Shown here: positions 6,675 through 58,062 of the stretch, piece after piece
How positions within the stretch are numbered: position 1 is the first letter of the stretch
How the letters are laid out: each line of letters begins with the position of its first letter
DNA from: a virus
DNA length: 64,000 nt
Virus record (IMG/VR): IMGVR_UViG_3300031885_000010
Span: 1 to 64,000 of that record
Direction: 5' to 3' (one strand)
Made by a program: the position numbers and the translations under genes
The notes under the pieces: generated by a model
The model's database searches: none
What the model was told of the DNA's origin: nothing
Seen by the model: the letters and a program-made list of their open reading frames with translations, nothing else

Positions 6675-7181
6675 TCATTTTCCAATCAACATTCCAGCCA
6701 GAAATAATGCCATTCCTGCAATACCATAGACTTGCCAATTGGAAGTAGGTTTTGAAACTTCACTTAGTTTGATCGCTCTGTCAGCAATTTCCTTCATCTG
6801 ATCAAAATTCCTGTTCAATCCGGCGATTTCCTTATCCTTAATCTCAATCATCTTCTGACAAATTTCGATTTCACGTTTGTCCAATTCACGAGTACGATTC
6901 AGATTGGCAACTTGTCCTTCCAAGTTCTCAATCGTCTTATCTTTCTCCAAGTCCATCTTTCTAAGCAATTCATAATCTTTAAGACGGCGTAGAATCTCTT
7001 GGGAATCGGGTAATCCGATATCGAGATAATCATCTGTGTCTGCGGACTGAGCGAAAGCCAAGTTTGTGGTACTCAACGACAATACTATCAATGTTAGAAG
7101 GCACAATAATAGTCTCACGAGCAACTTGAAGTTCACGAATCTTCTCCTTGTAACCATCTCTCTCTGTAACAAGTTTACCAT
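6675..7181 (-). CDS. secreted coiled-coil protein with C-terminal anchor (spanin-like partner)
   Basis: The N-terminus is a cleavable-type signal (LLVRLLLCLLTLIVLSLS, ending near AFAQ), followed by a long coiled coil and a C-terminal membrane segment (YGIAGMALFLAGMLIGK). It overlaps the upstream membrane coiled-coil gene by 152 bases in another frame, the nested layout of Rz/Rz1 spanins. There is no lipobox Cys, so this is not a standard o-spanin. An AGAGG site precedes ATG 7181 inside the partner gene. Confidence 0.55.
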   Translation of the reverse strand: MVNLLQREMVTRRRFVNFKLLVRLLLCLLTLIVLSLSTTNLAFAQSADTDDYLDIGLPDSQEILRRLKDYELLRKMDLEKDKTIENLEGQVANLNRTRELDKREIEICQKMIEIKDKEIAGLNRNFDQMKEIADRAIKLSEVSKPTSNWQVYGIAGMALFLAGMLIGK

Positions 7182-15200: not shown

Positions 15201-15315
15201 CAAGCTGTTGCCTTCCCTTTATAAATGGATCTTCAAAGTCCAATCCACTTATAGGCATCCCTTGTGGTACTTGGGATTTGGAAGCATATGGATCTTCAAA
15301 GTCAAGAGTTGCCAT
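9295..15315 (-). CDS. large polyvalent virion/ejection protein, 2006 aa
   Basis: The largest gene here. It is a multidomain protein likely packaged in the virion and ejected into the host. Visible parts: two LDFEDP motifs near residues 4 and 25; an Ala/Gly hydrophobic zone near 110-190; a block with FIEEVQSDWHQAGR (about 555) and AWTTGEQQAARYDL (about 665), shared by many phage polyvalent proteins; a zincin-like HEAIGHYAL (about 908); and a C-terminal region with NPPRDWFSAF (about 1443) and several hydrophobic helices resembling the LPD38 domain. The HEAIGH spacing is one residue longer than classical HExxH. It starts through a TAATG overlap with the upstream gene. Assignments to LPD families are from memory of motif style. 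Confidence 0.7.
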   Translation of the reverse strand: MATLDFEDPYASKSQVPQGMPISGLDFEDPFIKGRQQLARPLPEAPSYGEALKYYGKAGLRSALRTWEIPARMIYPEKEYGKIHPMSEYFKSTEEEERRAQQFTIPQQIVGGAAGLPGAALKYMPMMAAGPIAGPLIAAGAGATEEYQEGRPERMLRRGLEEGLTMGVFSALGRPALTAAEVAARKIPLAPVEKLLGKQIGRAGRAAIGAGTFALPPFIETGEPRQAIAPAVTGGLLFGLTGKTRYPALRPEAVVAGEPQYRLAPEVNIPKTTEEAHARGQNLTKEEAIETWEEYKRNIAKPVPEGQEGINIGFENQMLRETVEGYLGATGKLSLTPREIDQGLHRAGQYRLAPTWYSTLQRILSEKMPESMPVGQLATVLGIGTKEPAKWAGIKADEIKWTGLDEWLKTKMGRVSKTEVMEFLKQNEVRVEEVLHRTAAEGTITGEERAGLIPPKFSQWQLPGGENCRELLLTLPQKEFIRLREVQTRLDEISAKPAQWHKEHPEILKEWDALMIEGNKLIAERPPTFKGTHFDEPNVLAHVRFNDRVDAQGKKVLFIEEVQSDWHQAGREKGYIGEMSDANLKRYNELAGKQMEWRHGRGNELTSQESQELSTLYKEYDQTNKVPPAPFSKTWHELMMRRMVRWASENGYDKVAWTTGEQQAARYDLSKQIDSLGFVKHPTTPKDNLVDIWALKNGQRIIEERVQINDLDKYVGKDLARKIVEDQKDAGGFEGLDLQVGGEGMKGFYDKILPEYMNKFGKKWGAKVGETQLDITERDISKSTRDEFGNLVPTQGLPFATRTESVHSLDITPSMKESALREGFPMFRAGEEKPIAGAPLPMDILRSIIDKRTSELKNAPSIMIAETSEEFPSHLATKGAAGAYDRDSRTIWIARDRMISEAEVLNTINHEAIGHYALNSLMDPSFDPFLNRVFMKYGRTALEKEMSDLGYRFNFDTREGKLSATREKLAMLTETGENPGLLKQMYAWIREQLAKVFPGMEITDAEIQRVIAQAKGKMETGVFGVREERMVGLPEYRLAKLSPEEQRIQDHITSKTDEKISFRERVKDIYNNLYENYVNPWYQIEKTNPQSVTFLRLSHPKGYGLATESLKVGVPDFNQIQGWVTGQIPTTESIRIVSKGYAPIFESISKEDRPKFSRYEISKRTIEQESKGLKTGIDLNDANTIVNTYKNQSIGNTTYEQLFNDVRDFRREVLRYYQKSGMLSEEGFNLLDTENAMYVPFFRVHEQIGPQGIGTGITAKKVLKRWIGKEARPEKLIDPRESDIKNTYMLFGSAEQNMALKYFADSAPNLVEKLTPGMPGFKTHQYNVSLYEMRKSPLLQSLLEEAGMGRFDNQGRFRLNSGVKSELVDEVIKIFRPNFIKGRTDMFYTYENGKPILNKIDPEIGKALQTLDRSSVGIATRILSFPAKTLRAGAILSPEFWMRNPPRDWFSAFVYSKYGFTPWDFFKGLVSAVKGDEAYQKLLMSGGSQSAFISLDRTDIRLTAKQLLAKKKLSGAISGDSYTEVMKNLVTHPIEALRILTELSEMGTRLGVGIKAIEKGAPLPEAAMQFRESTLDFGKIASGSKAVNMIIAFWNANVRGIDKLIGSLNFKKNPELALRTFTKATISITIPSLLLAYYNQGDPRYQELPEWQKALFWIIPTEKHLWRIPKPFELGIIFGSVPEYIMRYLRTGDPETFENIGKALTAGSMPGIIPTAALPFVENWANKSFFTGRPIVPRGKEALRPEYQYQPYTTETAKWIGRQLSYLPIVGEGAASPAKIENFIRGWSGGLGGHALRILDKGLVSAGIVPEEIKPSRTLADIPVIRAFVSRYPGSDASSIQRFYETYHEVHALKSSINALRKQGKIDEARTLLGENRAILNFELAINRTQKALANMRGVIDRVYANPDMNPDEKRNLIEQMYLRMIEITRNINQRIGRNPWSGLESSLPFLNLKGALGIWENATDEEKLRIAPIILDKFQATRGIVGTPAGGMPPMTPEQFPTMGE

Positions 15316-30968: not shown

Positions 30969-33220
30969 TTATGTGAAAACTACAGTAGCATAGATTCTGC
31001 CGACTGCCACAGGCTTAATCATCTCATACCCATACACGTGCAGGGATTTGATGTGCTTCCCAAATGTGGATTCCGGCTTATCTATATAATCTGTCTCTAC
31101 GAACTGAGATGCATAGGTGATACCATATGGGTGTCCGAAAATGATATCCCAGCACAACTGACCCGTAGTAGAATCAGTATAGGATGGAAGTAGGTTGGAG
31201 GCATAAAGAGTAAAGTTACCCAACCGTCCCAGTCTCCCACTTCTTAATGTTGACTGGTTATCTCCCATCATGGATGCATCCTTTACATCGGAGTTCCTGA
31301 GCAATACTGCTGCTGCTTCCGGCATAACGATGAACCATCCACCCTGTGGCACGTTCTGTTCACCCAGTACCCCACCAGCCATGAGAATATATTTGACCAT
31401 ATTGGCGCTGGTGAGTTCCACGGGTGCGCCTGATGCACCAATATTATAGAGTCCTGAGACTCTTCCTGCTGCAATGCCGACATTATGCGAATCACACTTC
31501 GCAGCGATCCATGCTAATACTTCCGTATCCCTGTCGATCTTCTCATTCTCGATAGCATCCTCTGCCCACTGATTCATAAGGTCAATGTCGGACTGATACT
31601 TATCAATATCATCAATCCCGAATCTGGCATAGGCTGCCTTGTCAATGAGAAGCTGAATATATGGAGATTCAACCCTGTCCACAGCTTGCAATTGCATACC
31701 CTTCTGATAGGTATGCCACGGAACTGTACCACGGGTTCTGATCCAGACGGTATCACCTTGGGCCTTAATCGACCCTTCATACGCTATGTTATCCTTGAGG
31801 CTCTTTATCCCCAAGTTCTTGCGGTTTATTTTCCACGCAAGGCCGGACTATCTCATCACCCTTATAAAAACTACCATCCTTTTTCTTAGATTTTCTACCA
31901 TCACGAAATCTTGAAACTTCCCTGTAATACTTTCGTGAATAGCATCTAACGCAAAGTCCTTTCCTACGAATATCGTAGATTGAAGCAGAGCATTTAGAAC
32001 AGTAGGCTAAGGGTGCTCGGTGCTCGTGCAAACCAAGATTTGCCACATGTGCAATTTTATACATCATTGATGGAATAATATATGGCTGGATAAGCCCAAC
32101 AAACTCCCGACTATTTTGGGTATTAGCTTCAATCAGCCATTGTTTACCTTCGGAAACTTGTTTCATAAATCTCAGATTAAATGTGATTCCATATTCATCC
32201 TGAAAATACTTTTGGATTATATGAATCTCATCCTCATTACACATTGTAGCAATGTTAGTAGCAACAGAGGAAATCCATCCTTCTTTATTTCTATTTACTC
32301 TCGCATTCCCATCATCCATATACCAGATTGCTATTCCTTCTGGAGTTAACATCCTTAATACTCTTTCAGAAAAGGTCTTAACTCCATTAGGATATAACCA
32401 TTCTCTTATTTGCTTGAAATATGGATTAGACACGGAGAACGCACAATATCTATATTTTTTCTTTGGACCATGCATTCCAAATGTTACTGAGAAGTTTCCA
32501 CCCAAATGTTTCTTTATCAACCCAGCCTTGTGTTCACAATAGTCAAGTTGAGAAACTGAGTGAAGAATTCTCATCTCTGAACTTACATAGCCATTATATC
32601 CATTATGTCTATAACGGACATTCAGATATGAATCACCCAAACACATCCCAATCAGAATTCCCCTTGTCTCTACTTTCATCTTGCCTCCATCAGGGCATGA
32701 AGCCCAGGAGAATTAATCTTAGCTTGTAGTCTCTGAACCTTCTCCTTACGGAGCTTGGCTGCGGATAACCATTTCAGGCTTCCCCGCAATTCGCCGAGTT
32801 TTACACGAACTATGTGGCTAATTCGTGTTACTGATGTGAGTTATTACTGTTGCCGTTTCTGTTATCACTGAGGCTCTTTATCCTCAGTATCTTACGGTTC
32901 ATTTCCTGTAAGACCGGACTATATCATCACCCCATAGGGTGTCGGGCACTCGTGTGGGGATTATTCTTTCGTCACCCCTTAGTCTCTGAACCTTCCGCAT
33001 CCCTTGAGTTTCCTCTACATATGCGACTTGGCTGCTGATTGGCATTTCAGCGTTCCAGCAATTCACCCGATTCACAGTGTCAAATTTCTCTGACATGGGA
33101 CTGCAACATTTAGCAATCATACCACTTTTCAACCAGCTTCGTACTCCATATTTGAGGTATGAAGGCGCTGGTTCCTGCTGAACTATAATCGGGATACCCC
33201 GATACTCTTGCGACTGCCAT
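30969..33220 (-). CDS. major capsid protein, three exons split by two group I introns
   Basis: Proposed exons on the minus strand are 33220-33116 (35 codons), 32853-32821 (11 codons, ATVITHISNTN) and 31781-30969 (270 codons plus stop). Joined, they read ...STKLVEKWYD + ATVITHISNTN + YEGSIKAQGDTVWIR..., a continuous HK97/P22-like coat start; without splicing the frame ends after 37 codons. Each proposed 5' exon ends in T and each intron ends in G, as group I splicing requires. Start ATG 33220 follows AAGGAGGTAACATCTT. Product 316 aa, the capsid shell subunit. It lies directly after the scaffold gene. Confidence 0.8.
31782..32820 (-). ncRNA. group I intron 2 of the capsid gene, with LAGLIDADG gene
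   Basis: 1039 bases. The conserved core elements are visible: P AATTGCGGGG (32791-32782), Q ATCCGCAGCC (32766-32757), R GTTCAGAGACTA (32738-32727) and S GATGAGATAGTCC (31857-31845). The nuclease gene is inserted between R and S. The last 80 bases resemble those of intron 1. Self-splicing would remove it from capsid mRNA. Confidence 0.85.
31789..32679 (-). CDS. LAGLIDADG homing endonuclease (intron-encoded)
   Basis: Two helices of the family are visible: GILIGMCLGDSYLNV near the N-terminus and GIAIWYMDDGNARV near residue 115, each with its catalytic Asp. The C-terminus adds a zinc ribbon (CSKCSASIYDIRRKGLCVRC). Its reading frame runs through the intron S element and stops seven bases before the 3' splice site, so 3' intron core bases are also codons. 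A GATGGAGGCAAG site precedes the start. It should cut intron-less capsid genes. Confidence 0.85.
   Translation of the reverse strand: MKVETRGILIGMCLGDSYLNVRYRHNGYNGYVSSEMRILHSVSQLDYCEHKAGLIKKHLGGNFSVTFGMHGPKKKYRYCAFSVSNPYFKQIREWLYPNGVKTFSERVLRMLTPEGIAIWYMDDGNARVNRNKEGWISSVATNIATMCNEDEIHIIQKYFQDEYGITFNLRFMKQVSEGKQWLIEANTQNSREFVGLIQPYIIPSMMYKIAHVANLGLHEHRAPLAYCSKCSASIYDIRRKGLCVRCYSRKYYREVSRFRDGRKSKKKDGSFYKGDEIVRPCVENKPQELGDKEPQG
32854..33115 (-). ncRNA. group I intron 1 of the capsid gene
   Basis: 262 bases without a gene. Core elements: P AATTGCTGG (33063-33055), Q AATCAGCAGCC (33040-33030), R GTTCAGAGACTA (32991-32980) and S GATGATATAGTCC (32928-32916). P and Q are complementary (P4 pairing). 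The 3' end (ATAAAGAGCCTCA, GATAAC) resembles intron 2, indicating common ancestry. Confidence 0.85.
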
Positions 33221-38215: not shown

Positions 38216-40285
38216 TTATTGCATAGACGGTCCTGTAGGAACCATTCTATTAGCCGTTCCCTGCACGGGATTGCCTGCTGCATCTACCTGTGGTGCACCT
38301 GCCGGTGGAGGCACAGCCCCCTGCATCGGTAAGGGATTGAGTTGATCCTCCGGCACCAACTTACTGGCATCCAGATGCATACTCTTAGCCGATTCCTTCA
38401 GCCCATACTTTAATCCTTCACGTCCCATAAGTTCCTGAAACACTGGGATAGTACCAGCATTACGCAGGAAGTCATTGAGTCGGAGTGCCTGTTGTTCTCT
38501 GAGCATAAGCCATGCTGAACCCTTAGCCTGTATTTTCGTATCTCCGATGTATTCCAATGTTTCATCAAGATTGTAGTTCTCATAGTATTGAGCCTTGATT
38601 AAAGGTATGATGATATTGGTATCAACAGTAAATGCTACTTCCCTAATTCCACGATTCTGCTGACCCATGAACATGGAAAGGCCCGATGCAGTATTGCCAG
38701 CTCCTGACACGTTGGGATCTCCATGCGCATATCCGGCAATCCCACAGTGTTCATCAGCAATCTTGGAGGCATCATGATAAGCACTAAGGAGTTCAGAAGC
38801 ATGCATTTGTGCTTGGAAAAACTGCATGAAGGGTTCAGTCTGGGAAGAGAATGCATTCTTAACAAACTTCCAAATCTTCCATGGCCATATTTTGGTTACA
38901 TCTTGTCCAGGTGCAAGAGATTCAGTATCAAATGCCACCTGTGGTCCACTTGCTAATGCTATATTATTCTGTAATGCCCTAATAGCTGAGTTAGCTAATG
39001 ACTGTGCATCAGGAATTGTTTCCGGCAATCCCCTTCCCCAAAAAGAATTCTTCTCCTCCACATAGGAGGCTTTATAATAAGGTTTTAGGCCGAGTGGATT
39101 ATCATTAAGCCTGACTGCTAATATCCATCTATCAATGAGCCATGTCTGGACACGGTACACCAAGTCTGGATCAATCTTAACTCCAAAAAGGGTCTCTCCC
39201 TGATCCTCACTTTCTCCTGCCCAGCTAAGAAGCAATCTTCCTTCTACGGCATCATGGTACTCCAAGCATTCTATCTTATCCCAGGTATAATACTGAGACG
39301 ACTCTCTACCTTCTGCCTCGATGCGTTCCTGCTCATCCCAAGTCCATTCATGCCAACCTCTATCGGTGAAAGTACGAAGGATCTCTCGAATCGCCACTTC
39401 ATCGAAGCCAGGAAGCTCGATCATATCTTGCAGATCGGTACGGGTAAAGAATAGACGTTCTATGATTCCTGTATCATTAATATTAGTGGCCCCTGGAAGC
39501 GGGAACATATCGAAGGGAGATGGAGAATCCCAGGTAGGAATGGTCTCATCCTTCACCTTTACTTTCCCACGTCCATCTGCACTCTCCTCAATATCCATGG
39601 CTTTCTTCTTACGGTAGATAGGCCCCTTTATGAATCCAGCCTTGAGATCCACAATATCCATTAGACATGATGCTAATGCTTCGTAGAATCCTCCCTCTAC
39701 CAGCTGATCCTCTATCTTAGCCGCCATCATCTCGGACTTATCTTTAGCAATGTCCATGATAATAGCCTTATACTGATCCTTAAATTTAGGAAGAGCTTGC
39801 ATCATGGACTGCTGGATGGCTGATGGGTCTAAACCGGATGCGATTACCTGTTGCATGAATTTGTTGACTTCGGCCATAAAGGTGATTTCAGCAAGCCTTT
39901 CGTTTTGTGGACTGAGAGATGGAAGAGGAGTTGGCTCGATGGAGTATGGGCGCTCGCCTGATTGGAAGTAAACTTCCTTGAGCATAGCCTTAGCAGTTCT
40001 GGATTTTACATCTGTTATCATCATGAACAGGTCGGAGCCAAGTTGTTTAATATCGGCTAATTTGGCTGGCTCATACTCTCCACGGATCTGGAGAAGGTTG
40101 GCAATCATCTGATTATGGAACTTTATCTTTTCGAGTTTGGCCTTCTCCCATGCGGTACGGACATGACCTGAGAGTTGGTTCACCATCATATCTGATGGCG
40201 TATCTCCCTTGGCCTTCATCTCACGATCTGCCTTGGCCTTGGCTTCCTCTTCTAATTTGAGTTGATCGTTGCCTATAAGTTGCAT
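38216..40285 (-). CDS. portal protein
   Basis: A 689-residue podovirus-style portal. Signs are a helical N-terminus, a central WDSPSPFDMFPLPGAT, ARG/ASN-rich wing regions, ASYVEEKNSFWGRGLPETIPD, and SGAGNTASGLSMFMGQQNR, all in the order of such proteins, with a Pro-rich C-terminus (PMQGAVPPPAGAPQ). It forms the dodecameric ring through which DNA is packaged. It lies between terminase and scaffold genes. Confidence 0.8.
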   Translation of the reverse strand: MQLIGNDQLKLEEEAKAKADREMKAKGDTPSDMMVNQLSGHVRTAWEKAKLEKIKFHNQMIANLLQIRGEYEPAKLADIKQLGSDLFMMITDVKSRTAKAMLKEVYFQSGERPYSIEPTPLPSLSPQNERLAEITFMAEVNKFMQQVIASGLDPSAIQQSMMQALPKFKDQYKAIIMDIAKDKSEMMAAKIEDQLVEGGFYEALASCLMDIVDLKAGFIKGPIYRKKKAMDIEESADGRGKVKVKDETIPTWDSPSPFDMFPLPGATNINDTGIIERLFFTRTDLQDMIELPGFDEVAIREILRTFTDRGWHEWTWDEQERIEAEGRESSQYYTWDKIECLEYHDAVEGRLLLSWAGESEDQGETLFGVKIDPDLVYRVQTWLIDRWILAVRLNDNPLGLKPYYKASYVEEKNSFWGRGLPETIPDAQSLANSAIRALQNNIALASGPQVAFDTESLAPGQDVTKIWPWKIWKFVKNAFSSQTEPFMQFFQAQMHASELLSAYHDASKIADEHCGIAGYAHGDPNVSGAGNTASGLSMFMGQQNRGIREVAFTVDTNIIIPLIKAQYYENYNLDETLEYIGDTKIQAKGSAWLMLREQQALRLNDFLRNAGTIPVFQELMGREGLKYGLKESAKSMHLDASKLVPEDQLNPLPMQGAVPPPAGAPQVDAAGNPVQGTANRMVPTGPSMQ

Positions 40286-42740: not shown

Positions 42741-44762
42741 TTACAATAATTCAGGAAATAATAAATCAACTTGGTACTGCCTTGCCATACATTCATAATT
42801 AAAGCTGTGCCTGAAATGGTCTTCCCCCAGCTTTTTATACACATATCTCTTAGCCCCAGTGGGCTTCCCATCTTTATCCTTTTCTTCAATTAGCTCCTTA
42901 CCAGCATTATGAAGTTGTTCTGCAAACTTCTTCATAAGATCACAATCCTTGGGAAAAGTGATATTCCCCTCTTGTACCTCGTAATGGGACGCATCGAGAC
43001 TCTCGGTACGATTGCATAGAACCATCATCTTCTCTTCATCCCAGATGTAATCTCCCTTCTGGCGCTCTCTGTAGAAATTCAGGAATACTCTGCCCTTATG
43101 TTTCGTTGCAAATGCACGGGCATTACGGGTTTCCGGCTGGAGGTCACACACACAGCGATTAACATGAAATTTCTCCATTAGTGTATTAAGTTCGCTCCAA
43201 TCCTTATAAATTCCAATATGGACTATCTTTCCTGCTTTCTCCAGCACTCGTTTCCCTATTGTTACATGAAGCGAGTGTGACATCTGATCTACACCCATAG
43301 TGCATGGCCCAGGATCAGAATCGGCTATTCCATCATCCCTGCACAGATCAAGTACTTCCCTAACAGTAAGTCTATTCTCTGCTTCGACAAAGGCTGATCC
43401 TATAGTAAGGTTATAGAACTGTTTAATATTAGATGTAGTGTTATATTCATCCAATATTTCTTGTGGAGATACAAACCAACTCCATAACTGGCTGTAGTGT
43501 CTGCCTCTAATATTAGTAATGGCCGGACGTTTGGCCACCCATTCACCTACCGATGGATTCAACTCGGCATCTCTACACGACTGGCATAGTCTCACCACTC
43601 CTCCATCCCATTCCACAATACACTCAGGGAATGTATCTTCCATGCAGGTGTATTTATTGCACTTGGGACATTTCAATAACCAGTATCTCATGTCACTGCG
43701 CTGAAATTGCTTGTTTATGCCATAGTCAGGAAGAGTAGGATTAGAGAGCATGGCTATTTCTTTAAACTGAGAATGTGATAATCTTTTTAATGCCATCGCC
43801 ATTCGATCTTCAGTTGCTTCATCCAATTCATCGAATATAATGTAATCCCCAGGAGCACTTTTGACACCAATAGCACTATTCATTCCACGGAAAAGAAGGA
43901 ATGTATTCCAGAGACGTTTAACAGTAGTATTGTTTGTTTCCTGTATCCAATTGCCTATTGTGTCTGGATTTTCTTCAATAAGGGGAGCAATACGAGTTCT
44001 ACTGAAGTCTATAACGTCTGTCTTGGATGGAAAATAATAAAGAATATTCCTATATTTCCTAAATCTGGCTCGATGTATTACCCTACACATTTCCATAGAA
44101 GTAATACACATCTGCGTTGCTTTTTCATTTACAGTAAACGGATGATCCTCAGTATAAGGTTCTATTAAGTATTCATGCTTTCTAAATGTTAATGGTTCAC
44201 CATCAAGGATGATGGCATTCTTTTCTACCCACTCCTTGAGTGAAGGAACAGTTTCCCGAATCCCAAGTGGTATGGCTTCTCCAGTATCAAGGGCTACCCG
44301 TTTCGCTTCTACATCAGCCAATGATGCCACAAGGGGAGTCTGTTTCGCACTCCCACGCCTTCCCCTTCTTGGTTGTGGTTCGGCAATCTGTGTCCTAAAT
44401 ATTAGTCTTGGCCGATCAGAGAATAGAGCTTCTTTATCAATGTTGTGAAGCCCTAATTGTTTATTGAGTCTGGATTTAAAATTATAGTAACTATTAATGT
44501 TAATATTAAATCGTTTGGCAATCTCTGCCCCTCTAACACCCTTAGCAGATAGTTTTCGGATTGCTGTCTTCTCCTCACGGGTAAGAGGAGAACGGTGAGG
44601 CATACCAGGTCTGCCCCCTCCGCCAAAAAACCTGTGTCCCTTGGCTGCACCTCTTCTAAATGCAGGCTCACCTTCAGGTTCACTCTCAGACTCTAAGGCG
44701 GGAGTATCAGTCTCTAAGGCAGGAGTGTCTTCTAAAGTAGAAGTATCTATTGCAGCTTCCAT
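42741..44762 (-). CDS. terminase large subunit with fused N-terminal HTH
   Basis: DNA-packaging motor. The ATPase shows YYFPSKTDVIDFSRTRI and the Walker B strand YIIFDELDEA; a GpA-like zinc site (CPKCNKYTC ... CQSCRD) follows; the nuclease domain has GVDQMSHSLHV and VCDLQPETRN. Residues about 60-105 form a helix-turn-helix (LTREEKTAIRKLSAKGVRGA), the kind usually found in a separate small subunit, so the two functions may be fused. Acidic N-terminal tail. ATG 44762 or TTG 44765. Confidence 0.85.
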   Translation of the reverse strand: MEAAIDTSTLEDTPALETDTPALESESEPEGEPAFRRGAAKGHRFFGGGGRPGMPHRSPLTREEKTAIRKLSAKGVRGAEIAKRFNININSYYNFKSRLNKQLGLHNIDKEALFSDRPRLIFRTQIAEPQPRRGRRGSAKQTPLVASLADVEAKRVALDTGEAIPLGIRETVPSLKEWVEKNAIILDGEPLTFRKHEYLIEPYTEDHPFTVNEKATQMCITSMEMCRVIHRARFRKYRNILYYFPSKTDVIDFSRTRIAPLIEENPDTIGNWIQETNNTTVKRLWNTFLLFRGMNSAIGVKSAPGDYIIFDELDEATEDRMAMALKRLSHSQFKEIAMLSNPTLPDYGINKQFQRSDMRYWLLKCPKCNKYTCMEDTFPECIVEWDGGVVRLCQSCRDAELNPSVGEWVAKRPAITNIRGRHYSQLWSWFVSPQEILDEYNTTSNIKQFYNLTIGSAFVEAENRLTVREVLDLCRDDGIADSDPGPCTMGVDQMSHSLHVTIGKRVLEKAGKIVHIGIYKDWSELNTLMEKFHVNRCVCDLQPETRNARAFATKHKGRVFLNFYRERQKGDYIWDEEKMMVLCNRTESLDASHYEVQEGNITFPKDCDLMKKFAEQLHNAGKELIEEKDKDGKPTGAKRYVYKKLGEDHFRHSFNYECMARQYQVDLLFPELL

Positions 44763-44817
44763 CAATCTTTGCGTTCACCAATCAATGCATATTCACTATT
44801 TAGTAAACACTGTGAAT

Positions 44818-48856: not shown

Positions 48857-48905
48857 ATTTATCACCTCCTCTATAATTAATATTTTATTTTTCCTATGCA
48901 CCTAT

Positions 48906-48934
48906 CCCATATCATAATCTCCGCCGTTTGTCAA
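48906..48934 (-). promoter_or_regulatory. leftward sigma70-type promoter
   Basis: On the minus strand TTGACA (48934-48929), 17-base spacer, TATGGG (48911-48906). The predicted start lies about 40 bases before the first leftward gene. The -35 is perfect; the -10 is weak. Confidence 0.5.
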
Positions 48935-48976
48935 CCCCATCCTACAACAATCCATCCATCAAAATACATTTAGCCA

Positions 48977-49064
48977 TTGGCACGATAATTTCCATCATGG
49001 TTTGGCACGAATATTTCCCACATATAGATCCAAATTTAATTATGGAGTTGGCATAATAATTGAC
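48977..49064 (+). repeat. three TTGGCA-type elements (operator or -24/-12-like)
   Basis: TTGGCACGATAATTTCC (48977-48993), TTGGCACGAATATTTCC (49002-49018) and TTGGCATAATAATTGAC (49048-49064). The first two are near-identical direct repeats 25 bases apart. All have the -24 GG of sigma54 promoters but imperfect -12 GC, so a regulator-binding role is equally possible. Confidence 0.45.
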
Positions 49065-49100
49065 GATATCAATATATGTACCATCTATACACTACAAGTA

Positions 49101-49320
49101 ATGTATCATATTAGGTTTACCATAATAACTTGATGTAACTATTGATGTATCAGGTTACATTCACTACGATAACTTCAGGTTACATTCACTACGATAACTT
49201 GATGTATCACATTAGATTTAATTTTAATATCCATTAATATCCATTAATATCCAATACCTATATGTACAATCTTAATGTGTTAGATTAAGTTTTATTAATG
49301 TATCACGTTAGGTTTACTAC
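49101..49320. repeat. iteron cluster, possible replication origin
   Basis: ATGTATCA occurs at 49101, 49145, 49202 and 49298, each in the context R-ATGTATCA-NN-TTA. An exact 25-base unit is repeated in tandem (49151-49175 and 49176-49200), and TTAATATCCA is repeated three times (49224-49253). ATGTAAC/GTTACAT form an inverted pair (49134-49160). Clustered iterons in AT-rich DNA suggest an initiator-binding origin. Confidence 0.5.
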
Positions 49321-49763
49321 TGTAACTACTTGTATGTGTGAGATATACTCTGTGTATGGGGGAGGGTAGAGTCACATATATGTAGAAGGGATCACGCAGG
49401 CATGGGCCTTTCACGACTATGGGGTATGGGGTATGTCTGGGGTTGACATAGGTATAAATAACGTCTGATAAGAAAGAATTATGTCTGCTGTATAACTTTT
49501 GTATTACTTAATACATTCAATACTTTATATTATAATACTTAAAGGATCATTTTTCCTACCACCAGCAAACCCTTGATAATAGGACATTGTGAAATAGCTA
49601 TAAATCAGATCACAAGCACATAATCCGGGATAGTACTAATGTCTGATTATCTGTTGATAGTATAATCGTATTATCAAATTAACTGTTTAACTCCCTATCA
49701 AGTTGTCTATACAACCTTACAACCTACTTGTATAGTTATCTATACAACTTTACATCTATCTCT

Positions 49764-49816
49764 TATACGCAGGCGTATAGATGCATATGAGCATACATAT
49801 TACATATGAGCGTACA
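49764..49816. promoter_or_regulatory. palindromic operator and direct repeat
   Basis: TATACGC-AG-GCGTATA is a perfect dyad (49764-49779), typical of a dimeric repressor site. CATATGAGC-R-TACA is repeated directly at 49784 and 49803 (19-base period). A short XRE-type protein is encoded at 59499 and might bind here. Confidence 0.45.
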
Positions 49817-50073
49817 CGTGAGTGTGAGCAATCAAGTGCAGGTGCATAGTGAATGAGCGGATACAGGTGCAGGTGTGTATCATTAAAAGAGAGAAGCCGG
49901 TTTTCAGTTGACAAACTTTGTTACTCAGTATATAAAATTTTATTCTCAATCAAATTATGGGCTTAAATGAATTATCGACATTTCAACAGTCCGTAAATTG
50001 TCACCGGGTTGCAGAATACTGCACTTGTTCAAAAGTGGGCAGTATGAAATCATTAAGGAATTATTATTTTGGG

Positions 50074-50090
50074 TTGGCATGGAGTTTGCT
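50074..50090 (+). promoter_or_regulatory. sigma54-like promoter of the rightward operon
   Basis: TTGGCATGGAGTTTGCT matches the -24/-12 consensus YTGGCACGRNNNTTGCW at all but one position, with GG and GC twelve bases apart. The first rightward gene begins at 50140. A TATAAA at 50095 leaves a sigma70 reading possible. Confidence 0.45.
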
Positions 50091-50139
50091 ACAATATAAA
50101 TTGAAATTTGGAATTAACCCTTAATGGATAAGATATAAT

Positions 50140-50304
50140 ATGAAAACTCTATTAGAAATTACTGAATATTGTAAGTTAAAATCTTGTTACTCAAAGGAAG
50201 GGAAAATAGAACGATGTAATTATCTGAAAAAGGCTCGTTGCAATAAAACCTTTTGTGGAATAGTTTATGTTAAACGAGGTCAATGGTATTGTAATAAACC
50301 TTGA
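50140..50304 (+). CDS. Cys-rich micro-protein, 54 aa
   Basis: First rightward gene. Six Cys (TEYCKLKSCY, ERCNYL, ARCNKTFC, WYCNKP) suggest one or two metal sites. No strong ribosome site. An early host-takeover role is plausible by position only. Confidence 0.5.
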   Translation: MKTLLEITEYCKLKSCYSKEGKIERCNYLKKARCNKTFCGIVYVKRGQWYCNKP

Positions 50305-50306
50305 CA

Positions 50307-50325
50307 GTCTGATAAAACAACAGAC
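50307..50325 (+). promoter_or_regulatory. pre-SD hairpin 1
   Basis: Stem GTCTG/CAGAC with 9-base loop ATAAAACAA, followed by AGAAAGAGAGG. First of a family sharing position and loop consensus but different stems. Confidence 0.6.
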
Positions 50326-50344
50326 AAGAAAGAGAGGTTATAAA

Positions 50345-50758
50345 ATGAATGAAAGAATATTTCAAACAGGTAAGAGATTACAAATAGCTATTGATAATCC
50401 AGAGAAATTTGAAGGAATGCAAGACTATCTTGATCGAGCCTTTGCTTATTTAATGTTCGATCAAGATGGAGATGCACCGGAAAAAATCTTTAATGGTGCA
50501 TGGTTTGAAGTGCCATATTGGATTGAGAAGTATCATAACAAATTGGATGATGATTTAAATGATAAATATCTGTGTGAATATATTCCAGGACACTATGAAC
50601 CATTGAAATATGGCCATATTCAAGAGTATGAAGGAAAACAGTATAAATATATTGATAGTCAATCCTTAAGTGAAGAAATGGAACACCAAACAAAGGATGG
50701 AAAATATATTTATGAAAATAGGGGTTATTCATTTCTCAGAATATGGCGGTTAGTATAG
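50345..50758 (+). CDS. early protein, 137 aa
   Basis: ATG 50345 after AAAGAGAGGTTATAAA; the frame from 50267 would run through the hairpin. Acidic, aromatic, soluble (FNGAWFEVPYWIEKYHN, HYEPLKYGHIQEYEGKQYKY). Unrecognised. Confidence 0.6.
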   Translation: MNERIFQTGKRLQIAIDNPEKFEGMQDYLDRAFAYLMFDQDGDAPEKIFNGAWFEVPYWIEKYHNKLDDDLNDKYLCEYIPGHYEPLKYGHIQEYEGKQYKYIDSQSLSEEMEHQTKDGKYIYENRGYSFLRIWRLV

Positions 50759-50774
50759 TAGGATTAACCTTTGA

Positions 50775-50798
50775 TTGCTCGATAGATCATCGAAGCAA
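50775..50798 (+). promoter_or_regulatory. pre-SD hairpin 2
   Basis: TTGCTCG pairs with CGA-a-GCAA (one bulged A) around loop ATAGATCAT, then AGAAAGAGAGG before ATG 50815. Confidence 0.65.
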
Positions 50799-50814
50799 GA
50801 AAGAGAGGTGATAA

Positions 50815-51003
50815 ATGAGATTTATTCCTAATAATTTGGATGATGATTTTATTGGAAGGAATGATGACGAAGAAATGGATACAGGCAATCTTGACACATA
50901 TATAAAGGATGGAGTGAAAACGTATGCTCTGGGTCATGATTGGTTTGAGAATGAGAAAGCGCCGTATCCTTTATACTCTGTTGAAACAGAAAAAGAGATT
51001 TAA
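50815..51003 (+). CDS. acidic early protein, 62 aa
   Basis: Strongly acidic (LDDDFIGRNDDEEMDTGNLD), short and soluble. Possibly a DNA mimic or inhibitor by composition, but no family is recognised. Confidence 0.5.
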   Translation: MRFIPNNLDDDFIGRNDDEEMDTGNLDTYIKDGVKTYALGHDWFENEKAPYPLYSVETEKEI

Positions 51004-51025
51004 TCTATCATTATTATATAAACCT

Positions 51026-51044
51026 ATCCGATAGAATACCGGAT
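51026..51044 (+). promoter_or_regulatory. pre-SD hairpin 3
   Basis: ATCCG/CGGAT with loop ATAGAATAC, then AAGAAAGAGAGG before ATG 51064. Confidence 0.65.
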
Positions 51045-51063
51045 GAAGAAAGAGAGGGTTGAC

Positions 51064-51891
51064 ATGGAATATGAAAGATTGACTAAAAGGGAAGTAACAC
51101 AAGAGTTAATGAAGGATTGTAAGAATCACGTGAAATGTCTCGTTTGTGGAGAGTGTGTCACGTGTAATTTGAGGCCATGCAGAGACAGTAAAGAACATAT
51201 TGCAATGTCTTATAACCTTGAAGTAAAAAGGTTAGATAATAATACGTTTGAGGTTACTTATCCAAATGGGAATAAGGCTATCCGTTATCACCATACGGAC
51301 ATTATAACTTACCATCCAAATGGCAATATTATCATTAATGTGAATGGATGGTTGACCAGTACAACAAAAGAGCGTCTCAACAATTACTTACCCTCACAAT
51401 GGCGAATCAATCAGATTAATAAGATTTGGTATCTTGCTAACAACTCCCATTCATACGCCTATAAGGATGGAATAACCATTCATGTAGACGGCACAGTCAC
51501 AGGCAATGGCACAGATCCAAAGAAGCTATTGAAGCTTGATAAACAGATCAAGAAGTATATTGAAGGATATGTCAAGGCTCTGTTTGATGGGAAGATTAAG
51601 AAGCCTGGACCTGGTGACTGTTGGGGTTGTTTAATGAAGGATATAAAGACAGGCCAAACAGTATTTGGAACAGATCATTTGTTAGATCATTTTAGAGAAA
51701 GATATTATGTCCCTTCATTGTTAATAAATGCAATCGAAGTATTTCCTGTCTCAATCGCTGCAAAGTCATCAATCGGTTATTATCTGAAATATTACAACCA
51801 AGAATGCAAAGACTTTGAAGATATTGCAAGGGCGCAAATCAAGTCATCCTTGCGCCGGTATCTGCGCCGTCAATTAGGAATGACGACATAA
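51064..51891 (+). CDS. early protein with Cys cluster, 275 aa
   Basis: N-terminal CLVCGECVTCNLRPC, then a beta domain (RLDNNTFEVTYPNGNKAIRY, DIITYHPNGNIIINVNGWL, TTKERLNNYLP) found in many phage and plasmid proteins of unknown function, then a helical C-terminal region (CWGCLMKDIKTGQTVFGTDH, LLDHFRERYYVPSLL). ATG 51064 is chosen for its ribosome site. Confidence 0.6.
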   Translation: MEYERLTKREVTQELMKDCKNHVKCLVCGECVTCNLRPCRDSKEHIAMSYNLEVKRLDNNTFEVTYPNGNKAIRYHHTDIITYHPNGNIIINVNGWLTSTTKERLNNYLPSQWRINQINKIWYLANNSHSYAYKDGITIHVDGTVTGNGTDPKKLLKLDKQIKKYIEGYVKALFDGKIKKPGPGDCWGCLMKDIKTGQTVFGTDHLLDHFRERYYVPSLLINAIEVFPVSIAAKSSIGYYLKYYNQECKDFEDIARAQIKSSLRRYLRRQLGMTT

Positions 51892-51914
51892 ACAGATTGA
51901 GTTAACCTTAACTA

Positions 51915-51933
51915 CCTCGATAGATCACCGAGG
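51915..51933 (+). promoter_or_regulatory. pre-SD hairpin 4
   Basis: CCTCG/CGAGG around loop ATAGATCAC, then AATGGAG before ATG 51948. Confidence 0.65.
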
Positions 51934-51947
51934 GAATGGAGAATAAA

Positions 51948-52088
51948 ATGGAAAACGGAAGGGTATTTTATATTTATGACGTGGTTTTGAATGCATTAAT
52001 AGGAATGAGATTGACAGATGAGGGAATCGAACCAATATATAATGATTCTCTATCTGGTCAAGAAATTACTTCCATTAGTGCTCAATAG
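51948..52088 (+). CDS. micro-protein, 46 aa
   Basis: Starts 14 bases after hairpin 4. Opens YIYDVVLNALIGMRLTDEGI, looks like a small fold with one helix. Its existence is supported by having its own hairpin and ribosome site. Unrecognised. Confidence 0.45.
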   Translation: MENGRVFYIYDVVLNALIGMRLTDEGIEPIYNDSLSGQEITSISAQ

Positions 52089-52106
52089 GAATGAACCCTT
52101 GACCTA

Positions 52107-52123
52107 TCCAGCACAACACCGGA
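52107..52123 (+). promoter_or_regulatory. pre-SD hairpin 5 (degenerate)
   Basis: TCC/GGA stem with an A-C mismatch and loop GCACAACAC, then ATATGGAGG before ATG 52138. The weakest member of the family. Confidence 0.4.
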
Positions 52124-52137
52124 GATATGGAGGCACT

Positions 52138-52569
52138 ATGAAAGATGTAGAATTTATGACAGCTAAAGAGAAAGAAATGGTATTGAAGCAATGGATAACG
52201 TTTATAAAGAATGGAATGAAAGTAGAACATTTTACAGATAGACTTTATAAGCACCTATCGCTTCATTGCTCATTCATTGCTCATTATAACAGGATGGGTT
52301 TTTATTCAACCTATTTTGAGAGGCCAGAAGATACAATCAGATTCATAGGTCAATTTGACGAAGATCAAGGTCATAAATCCATTGAATACGGAAGTCAATA
52401 CTGGTTTACCGATTCAGATTATAATGACCTCAATCAAGCCATGTGTGAGGCTGTCGAACCGTACAAAAAAGAAATATACCAAACTCGAAGAAATACAGAA
52501 ATGGAAAGAGATATTGAAATATCTAAGGCATTAATGAGAAAACATGGTTTAACTCATTTGGAAGTTTAA
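52138..52569 (+). CDS. early protein, 143 aa
   Basis: ATG 52138 after ATGGAGGCACT. HCSFIAHYNRMGFYSTYFER and YWFTDSDYNDLNQAM are segments recurrent in phage early proteins of unknown function. Charged helical C-terminus. Confidence 0.6.
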   Translation: MKDVEFMTAKEKEMVLKQWITFIKNGMKVEHFTDRLYKHLSLHCSFIAHYNRMGFYSTYFERPEDTIRFIGQFDEDQGHKSIEYGSQYWFTDSDYNDLNQAMCEAVEPYKKEIYQTRRNTEMERDIEISKALMRKHGLTHLEV

Positions 52570-52652
52570 AATTGATGTCCAAGATGACGCAGGACAAGAG
52601 ATAAGGGATAGGTGAAGGGTAAACCATGAACCAGTATTCAATAACTTAGACG

Positions 52653-52673
52653 CTTCCGATAGAACACCGGAGG
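52653..52673 (+). promoter_or_regulatory. pre-SD hairpin 6
   Basis: CTTCCG/CGGAGG (one G-U) with loop ATAGAACAC, then GAAGGGAGAT before ATG 52684. Confidence 0.65.
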
Positions 52674-52683
52674 GAAGGGAGAT

Positions 52684-53106
52684 ATGCCAATGGAAGAACA
52701 AAAAAAATGCAAAGACAGAATAAGGGAGCATTACAAAGGACGAATGGAAGACTTGACTACTCTCTGGAATCTCTACAAAAAGGATTGTGAAGCCAGCGAT
52801 CCCGACCTTGGAACATGGAATGAATACGGATTATGCTTTGACTATGTAGCTCCTGGGACATTCAACGAACAACGAAGAGGATATTGGAGATATCAACTAT
52901 CCTGGGGTGGACCCTCAGATGAATTCAGATTCTATGCAGATGAAAATCTAAATATAACAAAAGTTGAATATTGGTTTATGGACTGGTTTGATGGTGCAAA
53001 GGTCAATGTCTCAGGGAAAAGTCTTGAGCTTCTTATTGAGATATGGGAAGATCTTAAGGAATGCGGAACTATCGAGCATACACAAAAAGAAGCAATGGCA
53101 GCCTAA
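52684..53106 (+). CDS. conserved phage early protein, 140 aa
   Basis: WNEYGLCFDYVAPGTF, YWRYQLSWGGPSDEFRF and YWFMDWFDGA form a recognisable, strongly conserved phage protein whose function is, to my knowledge, unknown. Helical ends flank the beta core. Confidence 0.65.
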   Translation: MPMEEQKKCKDRIREHYKGRMEDLTTLWNLYKKDCEASDPDLGTWNEYGLCFDYVAPGTFNEQRRGYWRYQLSWGGPSDEFRFYADENLNITKVEYWFMDWFDGAKVNVSGKSLELLIEIWEDLKECGTIEHTQKEAMAA

Positions 53107-53125
53107 TCATTTAACCCTTATTCCC

Positions 53126-53154
53126 TCCCTGCATTGCCTTTAAGGTGGTGCAGG
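53126..53154 (+). promoter_or_regulatory. hairpin before a ribosome site (different family)
   Basis: CCCTGCA (53126-53132) with TGCAGGG (53148-53154) and an inner CCTT/AAGG. AAAGGAGACACC follows. Same position as hairpins 1-6 but another loop. Confidence 0.45.
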
Positions 53155-53174
53155 GAAGAAAGGAGACACCAAAA

Positions 53175-53342
53175 ATGAAAGAGCATGAACCTATAAAGAA
53201 TTATTTTGATTTGTGTGAAGCAATCAATTCTCCAACATTGGGAAGAGATTTACAATATATGGCTGATACAGGGGAGAATCCTGCAGGATATTTTCTCGAT
53301 GAACTCCAACTGATGAGGGAATATTTACAGAGAGAGGAGTAA
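53175..53342 (+). CDS. small helical protein, 55 aa
   Basis: ATG 53175 after GGAGACACCAAAA. Helical, acidic (YFDLCEAINSPTLGRDLQYM, LDELQLMREYLQ). Function unknown. Confidence 0.5.
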   Translation: MKEHEPIKNYFDLCEAINSPTLGRDLQYMADTGENPAGYFLDELQLMREYLQREE

Positions 53343-53345
53343 GCT

Positions 53346-53438
53346 ATAACTGCCGAGACCGAGACCATCATTATATTTATAGCTTTGTTGGTGGCTTATG
53401 GATTGATAAGGGGAGAGAAAGGAGAGAAGAAAGAATGA
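53346..53438 (+). CDS. possible membrane micro-protein with ATA start
   Basis: The frame after the TAA of the previous gene stays open to TGA 53436-53438 and encodes a membrane helix (TIIIFIALLVAYGLI) with a basic tail. There is no ATG; ATA 53346 sits a normal distance after GAGGAG. Its TGA overlaps the next ATG. Translation is unproven. Confidence 0.3.
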   Translation: MTAETETIIIFIALLVAYGLIRGEKGEKKE

Positions 53439-53602
53439 AGATCATAAATAGTCATTGCTTACCATTCTTTTGGGATAAGACAGTGAGTATTTTCGATGCT
53501 ATAACGGGTAAAGAAATAGTTATTCAGAAAGATAAGTTTAAAGATGTGACAACGGACGGCGGAAGATTCGTTCAGTTTTATACATTTGAGATTGAAGATT
53601 AA
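53435..53602 (+). CDS. small beta protein, 55 aa
   Basis: ATG overlaps the preceding TGA. Strand-rich (KTVSIFDAITGKEIVIQKDK, GRFVQFYTFEIED). Leader AAAGGAGAGAAGAAAGA. Unrecognised. Confidence 0.5.
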   Translation: MKIINSHCLPFFWDKTVSIFDAITGKEIVIQKDKFKDVTTDGGRFVQFYTFEIED

Positions 53603-53617
53603 GAAAGGAAAAACAGA

Positions 53618-53830
53618 ATGCCTGTTAGAAAGTATAAAGATTGGTATATTGAGACGGTTGGAGGCCATATCACAATAAAGAGATTTGAAGCTGAAAAAGG
53701 AGATCGATTCAATGATCCGAATCATTATCAATGGCACTGGGCTTTTAAGCTAAAAGATTGTAAGGAACTTTGTGACAAAAGAGATAGGGGAGAAGAAATA
53801 GACGGATTATATCTTAAATCACTTTATTGA
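53618..53830 (+). CDS. small protein, 70 aa
   Basis: Beta start (KDWYIETVGGHITIKRFE) and helical end. GAAAGGAAAAACAGA leader. Unrecognised. Confidence 0.5.
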   Translation: MPVRKYKDWYIETVGGHITIKRFEAEKGDRFNDPNHYQWHWAFKLKDCKELCDKRDRGEEIDGLYLKSLY

Positions 53831-53855
53831 TTCAGAGTAGTATTTAACCCTCGAT

Positions 53856-54053
53856 ATGAATGATGAAGAAAGAAAACAGATTCAAAATGAGATGGAAAAA
53901 GAACATAAATATAGACAGGTCAAATCATTGCATTGTGATCGACCCTTTGAAACCAGAATATTTGGTCGATGGATAACGATTAGATCGAATAAAGAAATAA
54001 TTCAGTGGTTAAGGATTAGAGATAAAAGAATGAAAAAAGAAAGGAGAAAGTAG
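53856..54053 (+). CDS. basic small protein, 65 aa
   Basis: Charged helices at both ends (MNDEERKQIQNEMEKEHKY, RIRDKRMKKERRK) around a short beta part. Possibly nucleic-acid binding. No clear ribosome site. Confidence 0.4.
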   Translation: MNDEERKQIQNEMEKEHKYRQVKSLHCDRPFETRIFGRWITIRSNKEIIQWLRIRDKRMKKERRK

Positions 54054-54054
54054 A

Positions 54055-54180
54055 ATGGATAAAGGAAAAAAGATTTGCATCATTTGTAAGATCCGGCCGG
54101 GGATCAACTATGATGGCAGGGATATTTGCTGTTGCTGTTGGCCGAAGGAGGCTAAGAAGAAAGGAGGAAATGAGAAATGA
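54055..54180 (+). CDS. zinc micro-protein, 41 aa
   Basis: CIICKIRPG and DICCCCWPKE form a four-or-more-Cys metal site. The stop overlaps the next ATG (ATGA 54177). GGAGAAAGTAGA leader. Confidence 0.5.
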   Translation: MDKGKKICIICKIRPGINYDGRDICCCCWPKEAKKKGGNEK

Positions 54181-54362
54181 GCTATTGCTGGACGGGAAAG
54201 TGTAAGATGTATATCTGCACCATCTGTGGGGATCTCAATTACTCCATTATTGCATTGCGTACTGGTAACGTGGAGGTCCAATACTGCCATGAGTGCTGGA
54301 CGGCAAGAACGACACAGGAAGCATGGCGGATTGAGAATGAAGCAATAGCCATGATTAATTAA
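54177..54362 (+). CDS. zinc-finger small protein, 61 aa
   Basis: CKMYICTICGDLN and YCHECWTAR give a standard two-knuckle ribbon. Coupled to the preceding zinc gene. AGGAGGAAATGAGAA leader. Function unknown. Confidence 0.55.
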   Translation: MSYCWTGKCKMYICTICGDLNYSIIALRTGNVEVQYCHECWTARTTQEAWRIENEAIAMIN

Positions 54363-54385
54363 TAACGAGGTAATGGTAACGAGGC

Positions 54386-54493
54386 ATGAAGAATGGTATG
54401 AAGCTAAGAATATACCGCATATGCAGAATGGTAACATGGATCGTTGGAATAATAATTGCAATTGGGGCAGGAATAGTAATTGTGATGTATTGA
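54386..54493 (+). CDS. membrane micro-protein, 35 aa
   Basis: Basic N-terminus (MKNGMKLRIYRICR) then one membrane helix (WIVGIIIAIGAGIVIVMY). AACGAGG lies just upstream. The topology resembles small phage or toxin-like membrane peptides. Unproven. Confidence 0.4.
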   Translation: MKNGMKLRIYRICRMVTWIVGIIIAIGAGIVIVMY

Positions 54494-54507
54494 AAGGAGA
54501 TAGGAAT

Positions 54508-54720
54508 ATGCATACAACAGAAGGGAAGCAATTTACATTCGTTCATCATGGAGATTATTCGGGGGAGATTAAGATCATAAATAATAAATCTCAAAAAATG
54601 GTTGCTGAGATTCCGTTTGAGGACATCAAGCGATTGGTGGCTGAATGGGTGCGAGGAGAATGGATTGAAGCGATTGAAGGTATGGAAGATGACACACTTC
54701 TTGTGGGAAAATTACCCTGA
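54508..54720 (+). CDS. small protein, 70 aa
   Basis: ATG 54508 after GAAAGGAGATAGGAAT. Beta hairpin (QFTFVHHGDYSGEIKIIN) and acidic helix (DIKRLVAEWVRGEWIEAIEG). Similar small proteins are common in phages. Function unknown. Confidence 0.55.
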   Translation: MHTTEGKQFTFVHHGDYSGEIKIINNKSQKMVAEIPFEDIKRLVAEWVRGEWIEAIEGMEDDTLLVGKLP

Positions 54721-55780: not shown

Positions 55781-55785
55781 GCCAT

Positions 55786-55858
55786 CGGGGAGTAAGTCAG
55801 CGGCAGACGGCACGGCTTGGGACCGTGCAGTTCGGAGGTTCGAGTCCTCTCTCCTCGA
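55786..55858 (+). tRNA. tRNA-Pro (anticodon TGG)
   Basis: Cloverleaf: acceptor CGGGGAG/CTCCTCG (one G-U), D stem GTC/GAC, anticodon stem CACGG/CCGTG with loop CTTGGGA, T arm GGAGG-TTCGAGT-CCTCT. The genomic ATACCA after the acceptor would allow a 9-base acceptor (AT...AT) followed by ACCA, so end definition is ambiguous. Sole tRNA seen. Confidence 0.85.
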
Positions 55859-55902
55859 TACCAATTAACCTTTAACCAATCTAACTAAAGGAGGTAATTA
55901 TT

Positions 55903-56847: not shown

Positions 56848-58062
56848 ATGGAAGCAACTGCGGTCATTGGTATGAATTATGGCGATGAAGGAAAAGGACA
56901 TATCACAAATTATCTTTCCGATTCAAATACACTTAACATCCGATTTAACGGAGGTGCCCAAGCATCTCACGCTGTTTTTCTTTCTGATGGCCGCAGTCAC
57001 CTCTTCCATCATTTTGGGTCAGGTTCTCTTCAGGGAGCAAGAACACTTTTGGCAAGTCATTTTATTGTGAACCCAATTATTTTTGCTTGGGAGATGCAGG
57101 AACTTATAGAAAAAGCCCCCATGCGTGAGGTTTTTATTGATCCAAGATGCCGAGTTACTACTCCTTACGATATGTTTATTAATGAATTTTCTGCCAAATT
57201 TCATGGAAAAAAAGATACTGTGGGAATTGGAATAAATGAGACTGTTGAGCGTAGTACCTTTAGGCAACTCAAAATTAATATGCGAGACTTTGTTGAAAAG
57301 AGTAATGACGAAATTACATCTATACTGAGAACTATTGAAAATGAATATATGCCCTTTCGTATAAAACAATTAAATATTCCATGGAGTGATTTTGTAAAGC
57401 ATTATTCTGATAGTATTAAAAAATCGGTTGAATCATTCTTAAAGATTAGAACATGGATGACCGACCACATGATTGTAATATGGCCCGATGATGGCGTGAT
57501 AGACAAATTTCTTGCCAAAGATAAGGATCGCCGTATTGTTTTTGAGGGTGGACAAGGAATGCTTCTTGACCAAAATAGAAAAGAGTTTATGCCATATCTC
57601 ACTCGATCCAATACAGGAATCTTAAATATTTTGGAACTCCTGAAGACTATTAAGACAACATTGGATTTTAAGGTTTATCTTGTAACCCGAACATATCTAA
57701 CTCGACATGGAGATGGACCAATATGGAACCATATCCCAAATACTTTCCCATTTCCAAATATAGAAGAATCCACCAATCCAGATCATACATTCCAGGGGAA
57801 AATGCGCTACGGTCATCTCAATAAAAAATGGTACGATGAAGCAATTGAGGAAACCGAGACGATTATAGAGAACAACATGCCTTCTTGTATAAGCAATATA
57901 GAAATAAGTATTGCTATGACCTGTCTTGATCATCTCGGTAGCGAGTTCTCCTATTCTTTAGATGGAGATGGAAACATTGTTAAGGGAGATATATTTGATC
58001 TTCCAAGAATTAAATTGGTATCGAGCGGAAAAACAGAAAGAAATATTACACAATCTAAATGA
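56848..58062 (+). CDS. adenylosuccinate synthetase family (PurA/PurZ type)
   Basis: GMNYGDEGKGH puts Asp at residue 13 and GGAQASH puts His at residue 41, exactly the two catalytic positions of PurA; FEGGQGMLLDQ, LTRSNTG and TRHGDGP mark the remaining substrate loops, and SSGKTERN the nucleotide-base loop. The reaction joins aspartate to a 6-oxopurine nucleotide using (d)NTP energy. Phage relatives (PurZ) use dGMP to make 2-aminoadenine; typical PurZ lacks Asp13, but a PurZ0 type retains it. 404 aa, GGAGAAGATT leader. No DatZ or MazZ partner is in the window. Confidence 0.8.
   Translation: MEATAVIGMNYGDEGKGHITNYLSDSNTLNIRFNGGAQASHAVFLSDGRSHLFHHFGSGSLQGARTLLASHFIVNPIIFAWEMQELIEKAPMREVFIDPRCRVTTPYDMFINEFSAKFHGKKDTVGIGINETVERSTFRQLKINMRDFVEKSNDEITSILRTIENEYMPFRIKQLNIPWSDFVKHYSDSIKKSVESFLKIRTWMTDHMIVIWPDDGVIDKFLAKDKDRRIVFEGGQGMLLDQNRKEFMPYLTRSNTGILNILELLKTIKTTLDFKVYLVTRTYLTRHGDGPIWNHIPNTFPFPNIEESTNPDHTFQGKMRYGHLNKKWYDEAIEETETIIENNMPSCISNIEISIAMTCLDHLGSEFSYSLDGDGNIVKGDIFDLPRIKLVSSGKTERNITQSK

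Follow-up and report, generated by a model that had tools for sequence, protein, structure and literature searches.

Six consecutive rightward genes of an uncultured phage, with starts at 50345, 50815, 51064, 51948, 52138 and 52690, are each preceded by a small hairpin, and these hairpins form a real family at the RNA level, all on the sense strand and all close to a start codon, with a near-fixed loop on stems that change on both sides while remaining complementary. This arrangement suggests that a run of phage genes has a control or processing signal in common. The window, by which the whole stretch of DNA that was analysed is meant, comprises 64,000 of the 66,439 bases of an IMG/VR virus record.

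Genome setting and layout of the elements

Left-pointing genes occupy most of the window, including the following:

42744-44765, left-pointing: terminase
38219-40285, left-pointing: portal or head-tail adaptor
30972-31814, left-pointing: major head protein

The rightward block starts after a non-coding stretch of about 1 kb (48,900-49,950), and the hairpin-bearing genes are the first genes of this rightward arm, beside the non-coding region; judging from that position, they would be early genes. Several other features of the window may be recorded here. A group I intron core (RF00028, 69.9 bits, 32895-33130, minus strand) lies beside the major head protein gene and is adjoined by a LAGLIDADG homing endonuclease gene (phrog_11023, 31792-32679, minus strand), the region extending over 31792-33130. 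The sole tRNA in the window is a tRNA-Pro (TGG) at 55785-55859 (plus strand), and an adenylosuccinate synthetase of the phage PurZ type (phrog_1211, 4.6e-50; PF00709) is encoded at 56848-58059 (plus strand), a hint that the phage might use 2-aminoadenine in place of adenine. The only very large protein in the window, of 2006 aa (9298-15315, minus strand), contains the domain LPD38 and has relatives in Pelagibacter, Bacillus and Vibrio phages.

From 5' to 3', the elements (e1 to e6) consist of an AACC-type box, the hairpin, a purine-rich Shine-Dalgarno (SD) sequence and the start codon, and are given below with stem, loop and stem separated by hyphens, followed by the gene behind each:

50297..50347, plus strand: e1, AACCTTGA, hairpin 50307-50325 (GTCTG-ATAAAACAA-CAGAC), loop 50312-50320, purine-rich SD 50331-50337, ATG 50345; gene 50345..50758 (plus strand), 137 aa, no confident family
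50766..50817, plus strand: e2, AACCTTTGA, hairpin 50775-50798 (TTGCTCG-ATAGATCAT-CGA(A)GCAA, one bulged A), loop 50782-50790, SD, ATG 50815; gene 50815..51003 (plus strand), 62 aa, no confident family
51022..51066, plus strand: e3, AACC abutting hairpin 51025-51045 (TATCCG-ATAGAATAC-CGGATG), loop 51031-51039, SD, ATG 51064; gene 51064..51891 (plus strand), 275 aa, phrog_19389, phage protein of unknown function
51904..51950, plus strand: e4, AACCTTAAC, hairpin 51915-51933 (CCTCG-ATAGATCAC-CGAGG), loop 51920-51928, GGAG, ATG 51948; gene 51948..52088 (plus strand), 46 aa
52094..52140, plus strand: e5 (degenerate), AACCCTTGACC, hairpin 52107-52123 (TCCA-GCACAACAC-CGGA, A.C mismatch beside the loop), GGAGG, ATG 52138; gene 52138..52569 (plus strand), 143 aa, no confident family
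52642..52692, plus strand: e6, AACTTAGAC, hairpin 52653-52673 (CTTCCG-ATAGAACAC-CGGAGG), loop 52659-52667, GGGAG, ATG 52690 (or 52684); gene 52690..53106 (plus strand), 138 aa, phrog_36747, function unknown

An earlier note on this DNA had described six genes in a row with an upstream hairpin and a nine-base loop, and all six lie where it placed them, the interval 50307-52673 running exactly from the first stem through the last. The loop has nine nucleotides in every copy, is close to AUARAHYAY, and ends 24, 24, 24, 19, 18 and 22 nt before the start codon in e1 to e6, respectively. The AACC box lies 42-49 nt upstream of the start codon in five of the six, e6 having AACTT, which bears out the description of an AACC-type sequence that usually stands before the hairpin and a purine-rich one after it.

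No recognisable homology was found among the proteins behind the six hairpins, most of which have no database match either, and gene duplication therefore does not account for the common leader. Relatives of the 51064 gene were found at 32 viral loci, plus in Caulobacter phages near their genome ends, and relatives of the 52690 gene at 8 viral loci. A consensus scan found fewer sigma-70-like sites in the hairpin stretch than in shuffles, and a scan for terminators found none on the sense strand at the hairpins; co-transcription of the gene block is plausible on these two grounds. The tails after the stems are purine-rich on the sense strand and have no T run, and the hairpins were accordingly rejected as Rho-independent terminators.

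The next spacer after the six repeats the layout with a longer, more stable and unrelated hairpin:

53113..53178, plus strand: possible structural cousin, AACCCTT, long hairpin CCCTGCA...TGCAGGG, GAAGAAAGGAG, ATG at about 53176

This hairpin (-26.5 kcal/mol, z -4.2) is without the conserved loop and was rejected as a family member, a covariance model of the six copies giving it only 11.2 bits (E 4.9).

Evidence for a covarying family

The letters of the loop alone are not enriched, ATAGATCAC occurring with one mismatch 15 times in the window against 23 expected. It is the combination of loop and stem that is rare: four ATARANNAN loops with 5-bp stems were observed in 2.6 kb, whereas among 2000 dinucleotide shuffles of the region 1903 held no such hairpin, 95 held one and 2 held two. 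Covariation was measured on a sequence-only MAFFT alignment of the six copies, structure not being used in the fitting, and two-sided changes occur in four of the five stem pairs (seven two-sided cells). The covariation score of 0.600, compared with a mean of 0.285 for shuffled partners, was equalled in none of 500 shuffles, a count that is not a probability and that concerns covariation among six copies in one genome. Sliding the partner columns by 1-3 positions lowers the score to 0.24 or less in every register. The claim that the stems differ yet stay complementary is upheld by these values.

A leave-one-out scorer that was blind to the tested copy and ranked over both strands of the 64 kb (2 x 64 kb) placed e1, e2, e3, e4 and e6 all first when the flanks were included; on the hairpin only, their ranks were 8, 24, 1, 1 and 1, respectively. 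The fifth copy, e5 (52111), fails, ranking 125 even with flanks. The best-ranking non-member, at 7181 on the minus strand, falls in coding sequence. Given these ranks, five copies are firm and e5 is decayed or doubtful, its loop and stem being largely lost and its membership resting on position and partial similarity; one copy had been called degenerate from the start. The six-copy covariance model scores e1 at 49.8, e2 at 45.5, e3 at 37.7, e4 at 53.6, e5 at 42.8 (from a model trained with e5 included) and e6 at 44.3 bits, and beyond these six nothing in the 66-kb record scores above 15 bits. The proposal of an RNA element with a near-fixed loop is thus sustained by its constant strand, its narrow distance from the start codon and its rarity in every control.

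No copy of the element was seen outside this 66-kb virus record, where it stands before six consecutive starts, and comparative support from other genomes is lacking. Pattern scans of IMG/VR viral contigs and of 84,980 prokaryote genomes gave isolated chance matches only, all of them single, mostly within open frames and none followed by an SD and a start, in collections that may omit records very near the window's own, so that close kin would be out of view. One pattern match (L006) sits inside a coding gene and was rejected as a copy. The covariance-model search that the earlier note had called for recovers the six copies in their own record and gave no convincing match over 91 other loci. 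A candidate at 10721-10770 of another locus, L033 (E 0.36, 55-locus search), is a similar-looking hairpin before an SD and was set aside, its stem closing further into the loop and its letters differing. BLAST of the hairpin region against phage records gave no match, and no relatives of the terminase or of the e1-gene and e5-gene products were found in viral contigs. Presence before orthologous genes in relatives had been set beforehand as a test, and here the result was negative: the element is absent at the 32 loci with a relative of the 51064 gene and at the 8 with a relative of the 52690 gene, all of these relatives being distant and the better ones having 28-48% identity. This absence is no refutation, because the relatives are distant and one of them has hammerhead ribozymes in the same spacers.

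Possible roles of the hairpins

The reading preferred here, to which about an even chance is given, is that of an operator-like mRNA hairpin whose loop is read by a trans-acting factor controlling translation of the gene block. Each of the six spacers would carry a copy of the same cis-acting RNA hairpin, which is maintained for its shape and its nine-nucleotide loop, and a phage-encoded or host protein would bind this loop on the mRNA, antisense RNA being less likely. Lying 18-24 nt before the start codon, the hairpin would be placed where the footprint of the initiating ribosome ends, and a binder there would therefore alter ribosome loading on all these genes together; the existence of this factor and the direction of its effect are what we infer. 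The operator reading is favoured because the stem is variable yet complementary and the asymmetric loop conserved, because the element is always in the sense orientation with its loop end always 18-24 nt from the start codon, and because it occurs before six consecutive starts and at no other place in the record. It is further favoured by a leader shared without protein homology, by the few sigma-70-like sites and lack of a sense-strand terminator, and by the precedent of T4/RB69 gene 43 (PMC3014915). It is weakened because the covariation comes from six copies in one genome, because e5 has mostly lost loop and stem, because the spacer at 53113-53176 combines a like layout with an unrelated hairpin, as a structural role would lead one to expect, and because no binder was identified, neither a loop-binding protein nor an RNase nor a host factor. 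An outer AACCU/AGGUU helix pairing the AACC box with the SD is predicted in e1-e3 and would hide the SD, providing a direct switch; overall, this helix is not above shuffles (Fisher p 0.38), and the switch, which is not supported, is therefore not relied upon.

More tentatively, and with the balance somewhat against it, the set may be a phage RNA regulon, in which six neighbouring messages would be switched or processed together by one dedicated RNA-binding factor that reads the loop they share, the stems being free to drift, as the RNA counterpart of a transcriptional regulon. Such a family is described neither in Rfam nor in the open-access literature found. If true, a single repeated hairpin would control a whole phage gene block post-transcriptionally, which would be unusual as a regulatory layout; the loop, being near-fixed, offers a clean bait for finding the binder.

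The main rival to the operator reading is a role in mRNA processing or stability, in which each hairpin would be an endoribonuclease recognition or protection site, a long transcript being cut into single-gene messages or its 5' ends protected; it is considered unlikely, if far from negligible. It draws on a distant phage (L017), in which type II hammerhead ribozymes (RF02276) at 9814-9884 and 10602-10669 (plus strand; 45.2 and 49.1 bits, Rfam cut-off 37) occupy the two spacers that border the orthologue of the 51064 gene, one on each side, in exactly the positions that e3 and e4 take in the window; the 45.9-kb record of L017 has no further hammerheads. Tandem hammerheads flanking single genes in prophages have been proposed to cut long transcripts (Perreault and colleagues, PMC3088659). 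In L033, the spacer after the orthologue (10629-10765, plus strand) likewise folds strongly (z -4.3, -54.7 kcal/mol) and ends in a hairpin directly before GAAGGAGAGG and ATG, with no tRNA call and no Rfam match. The analogy of position is, however, drawn from a distant phage whose orthologue has 37% identity, and no Rfam ribozyme match was found in 49300-54600 at E up to 10; at the gathering score the elements match no Rfam family, the only matches in the window being the group I intron and the tRNA elsewhere. The elements were also rejected as hammerheads, being single hairpins without the core letters (CUGANGA, GAAA) or a three-way junction, and stems of 5-7 bp are short for RNase III. The hammerheads in the relative's equivalent spacers hint that the RNA device placed in this position differs among phages. 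The same relative carries at 12100-12710 (plus strand) a gene made almost wholly of 24-base units, encoding a repeat protein of QIGGLSQD with the variants QIGWLSQD and QIGGLSRY.

A passive insulator is improbable; here a small hairpin would prevent the ribosome site from being closed, or would stand in the way of upstream structure or exonucleases, and the loop would descend from a shared ancestral copy without being under selection. The spacer at 53113-53176, with its like layout and its different and more stable hairpin, agrees more readily with such a structural role than with one specific to the loop, but in the six elements the stem letters are less conserved than the loop, whereas neutral inheritance of the loop with selection on the stem would give the reverse, and five copies were recovered by leave-one-out scoring of loop, stem and flanks jointly. 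It is very improbable that each hairpin is an N4-like promoter, a single-stranded DNA hairpin read by a virion RNA polymerase: hairpin, strand and start-codon distance would permit a short SD-containing leader, but the 2006-aa protein has no strict polymerase motif B or C, polymerase family or solved relative (in the search for the T7-type polymerase family the positive control gave no signal either), and the hairpin loops of phage N4 are far shorter. Chance resemblance of unrelated spacers, in keeping with the unenriched loop letters and the weak e5, is contradicted for five of the six copies by the shuffle test, the covariation and the leave-one-out ranks, and is scarcely credible.

Comparison with known systems

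The lambdoid boxB/nut sites resemble the elements of the window in having an upstream box and then a hairpin whose loop is conserved while its stem varies. BoxB, however, has a 5-nt purine loop, acts in antitermination, usually occurs once or twice per genome arm and is not tied to start codons, and the AACCTT box of the window is not boxA. Type II hammerheads (RF02276; PMC3088659) share the intergenic position around the orthologue in L017, but have a core and a three-way junction, whereas the elements of the window have neither, nor an Rfam match.

The start-associated sequences (SAS) and extended SAS (ESAS) of cluster K mycobacteriophages (PMC3203893) are likewise repeated immediately upstream of several unrelated phage gene starts. 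SAS is a fixed 13-bp sequence, GGGATAGGAGCCC, to which ESAS adds an inverted repeat just upstream, with conserved 17-bp arms and a variable spacer (PMC3203893); the elements of the window reverse this pattern, their arms varying with compensation and their loop being near-fixed, and no spacer of the six contains GGGATAGGAGCCC, two mismatches being allowed, close before the start. The T4/RB69 gene 43 operator is, like the element described here, a hairpin upstream of the ribosome site with a near-invariant loop, the same loop standing on stems of different length together with ribosome-site sequence (PMC3014915). That operator serves a single gene, in the autoregulation of DNA polymerase, about 40 nt separating its hairpin, with the loop UAAC, from the start codon (PMC3014915), whereas the element of the window precedes six genes and its binder is a presumed one. 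SAS/ESAS and the gene 43 operator are the nearest known kinds, and the element of the window fits neither definition fully. Start-associated phage repeats have been known since 2011 with no proven mechanism, the function of SAS/ESAS being still unproven in 2025 (PMC12699233); the covarying stem points to RNA, and the question of what such repeats do therefore becomes testable.
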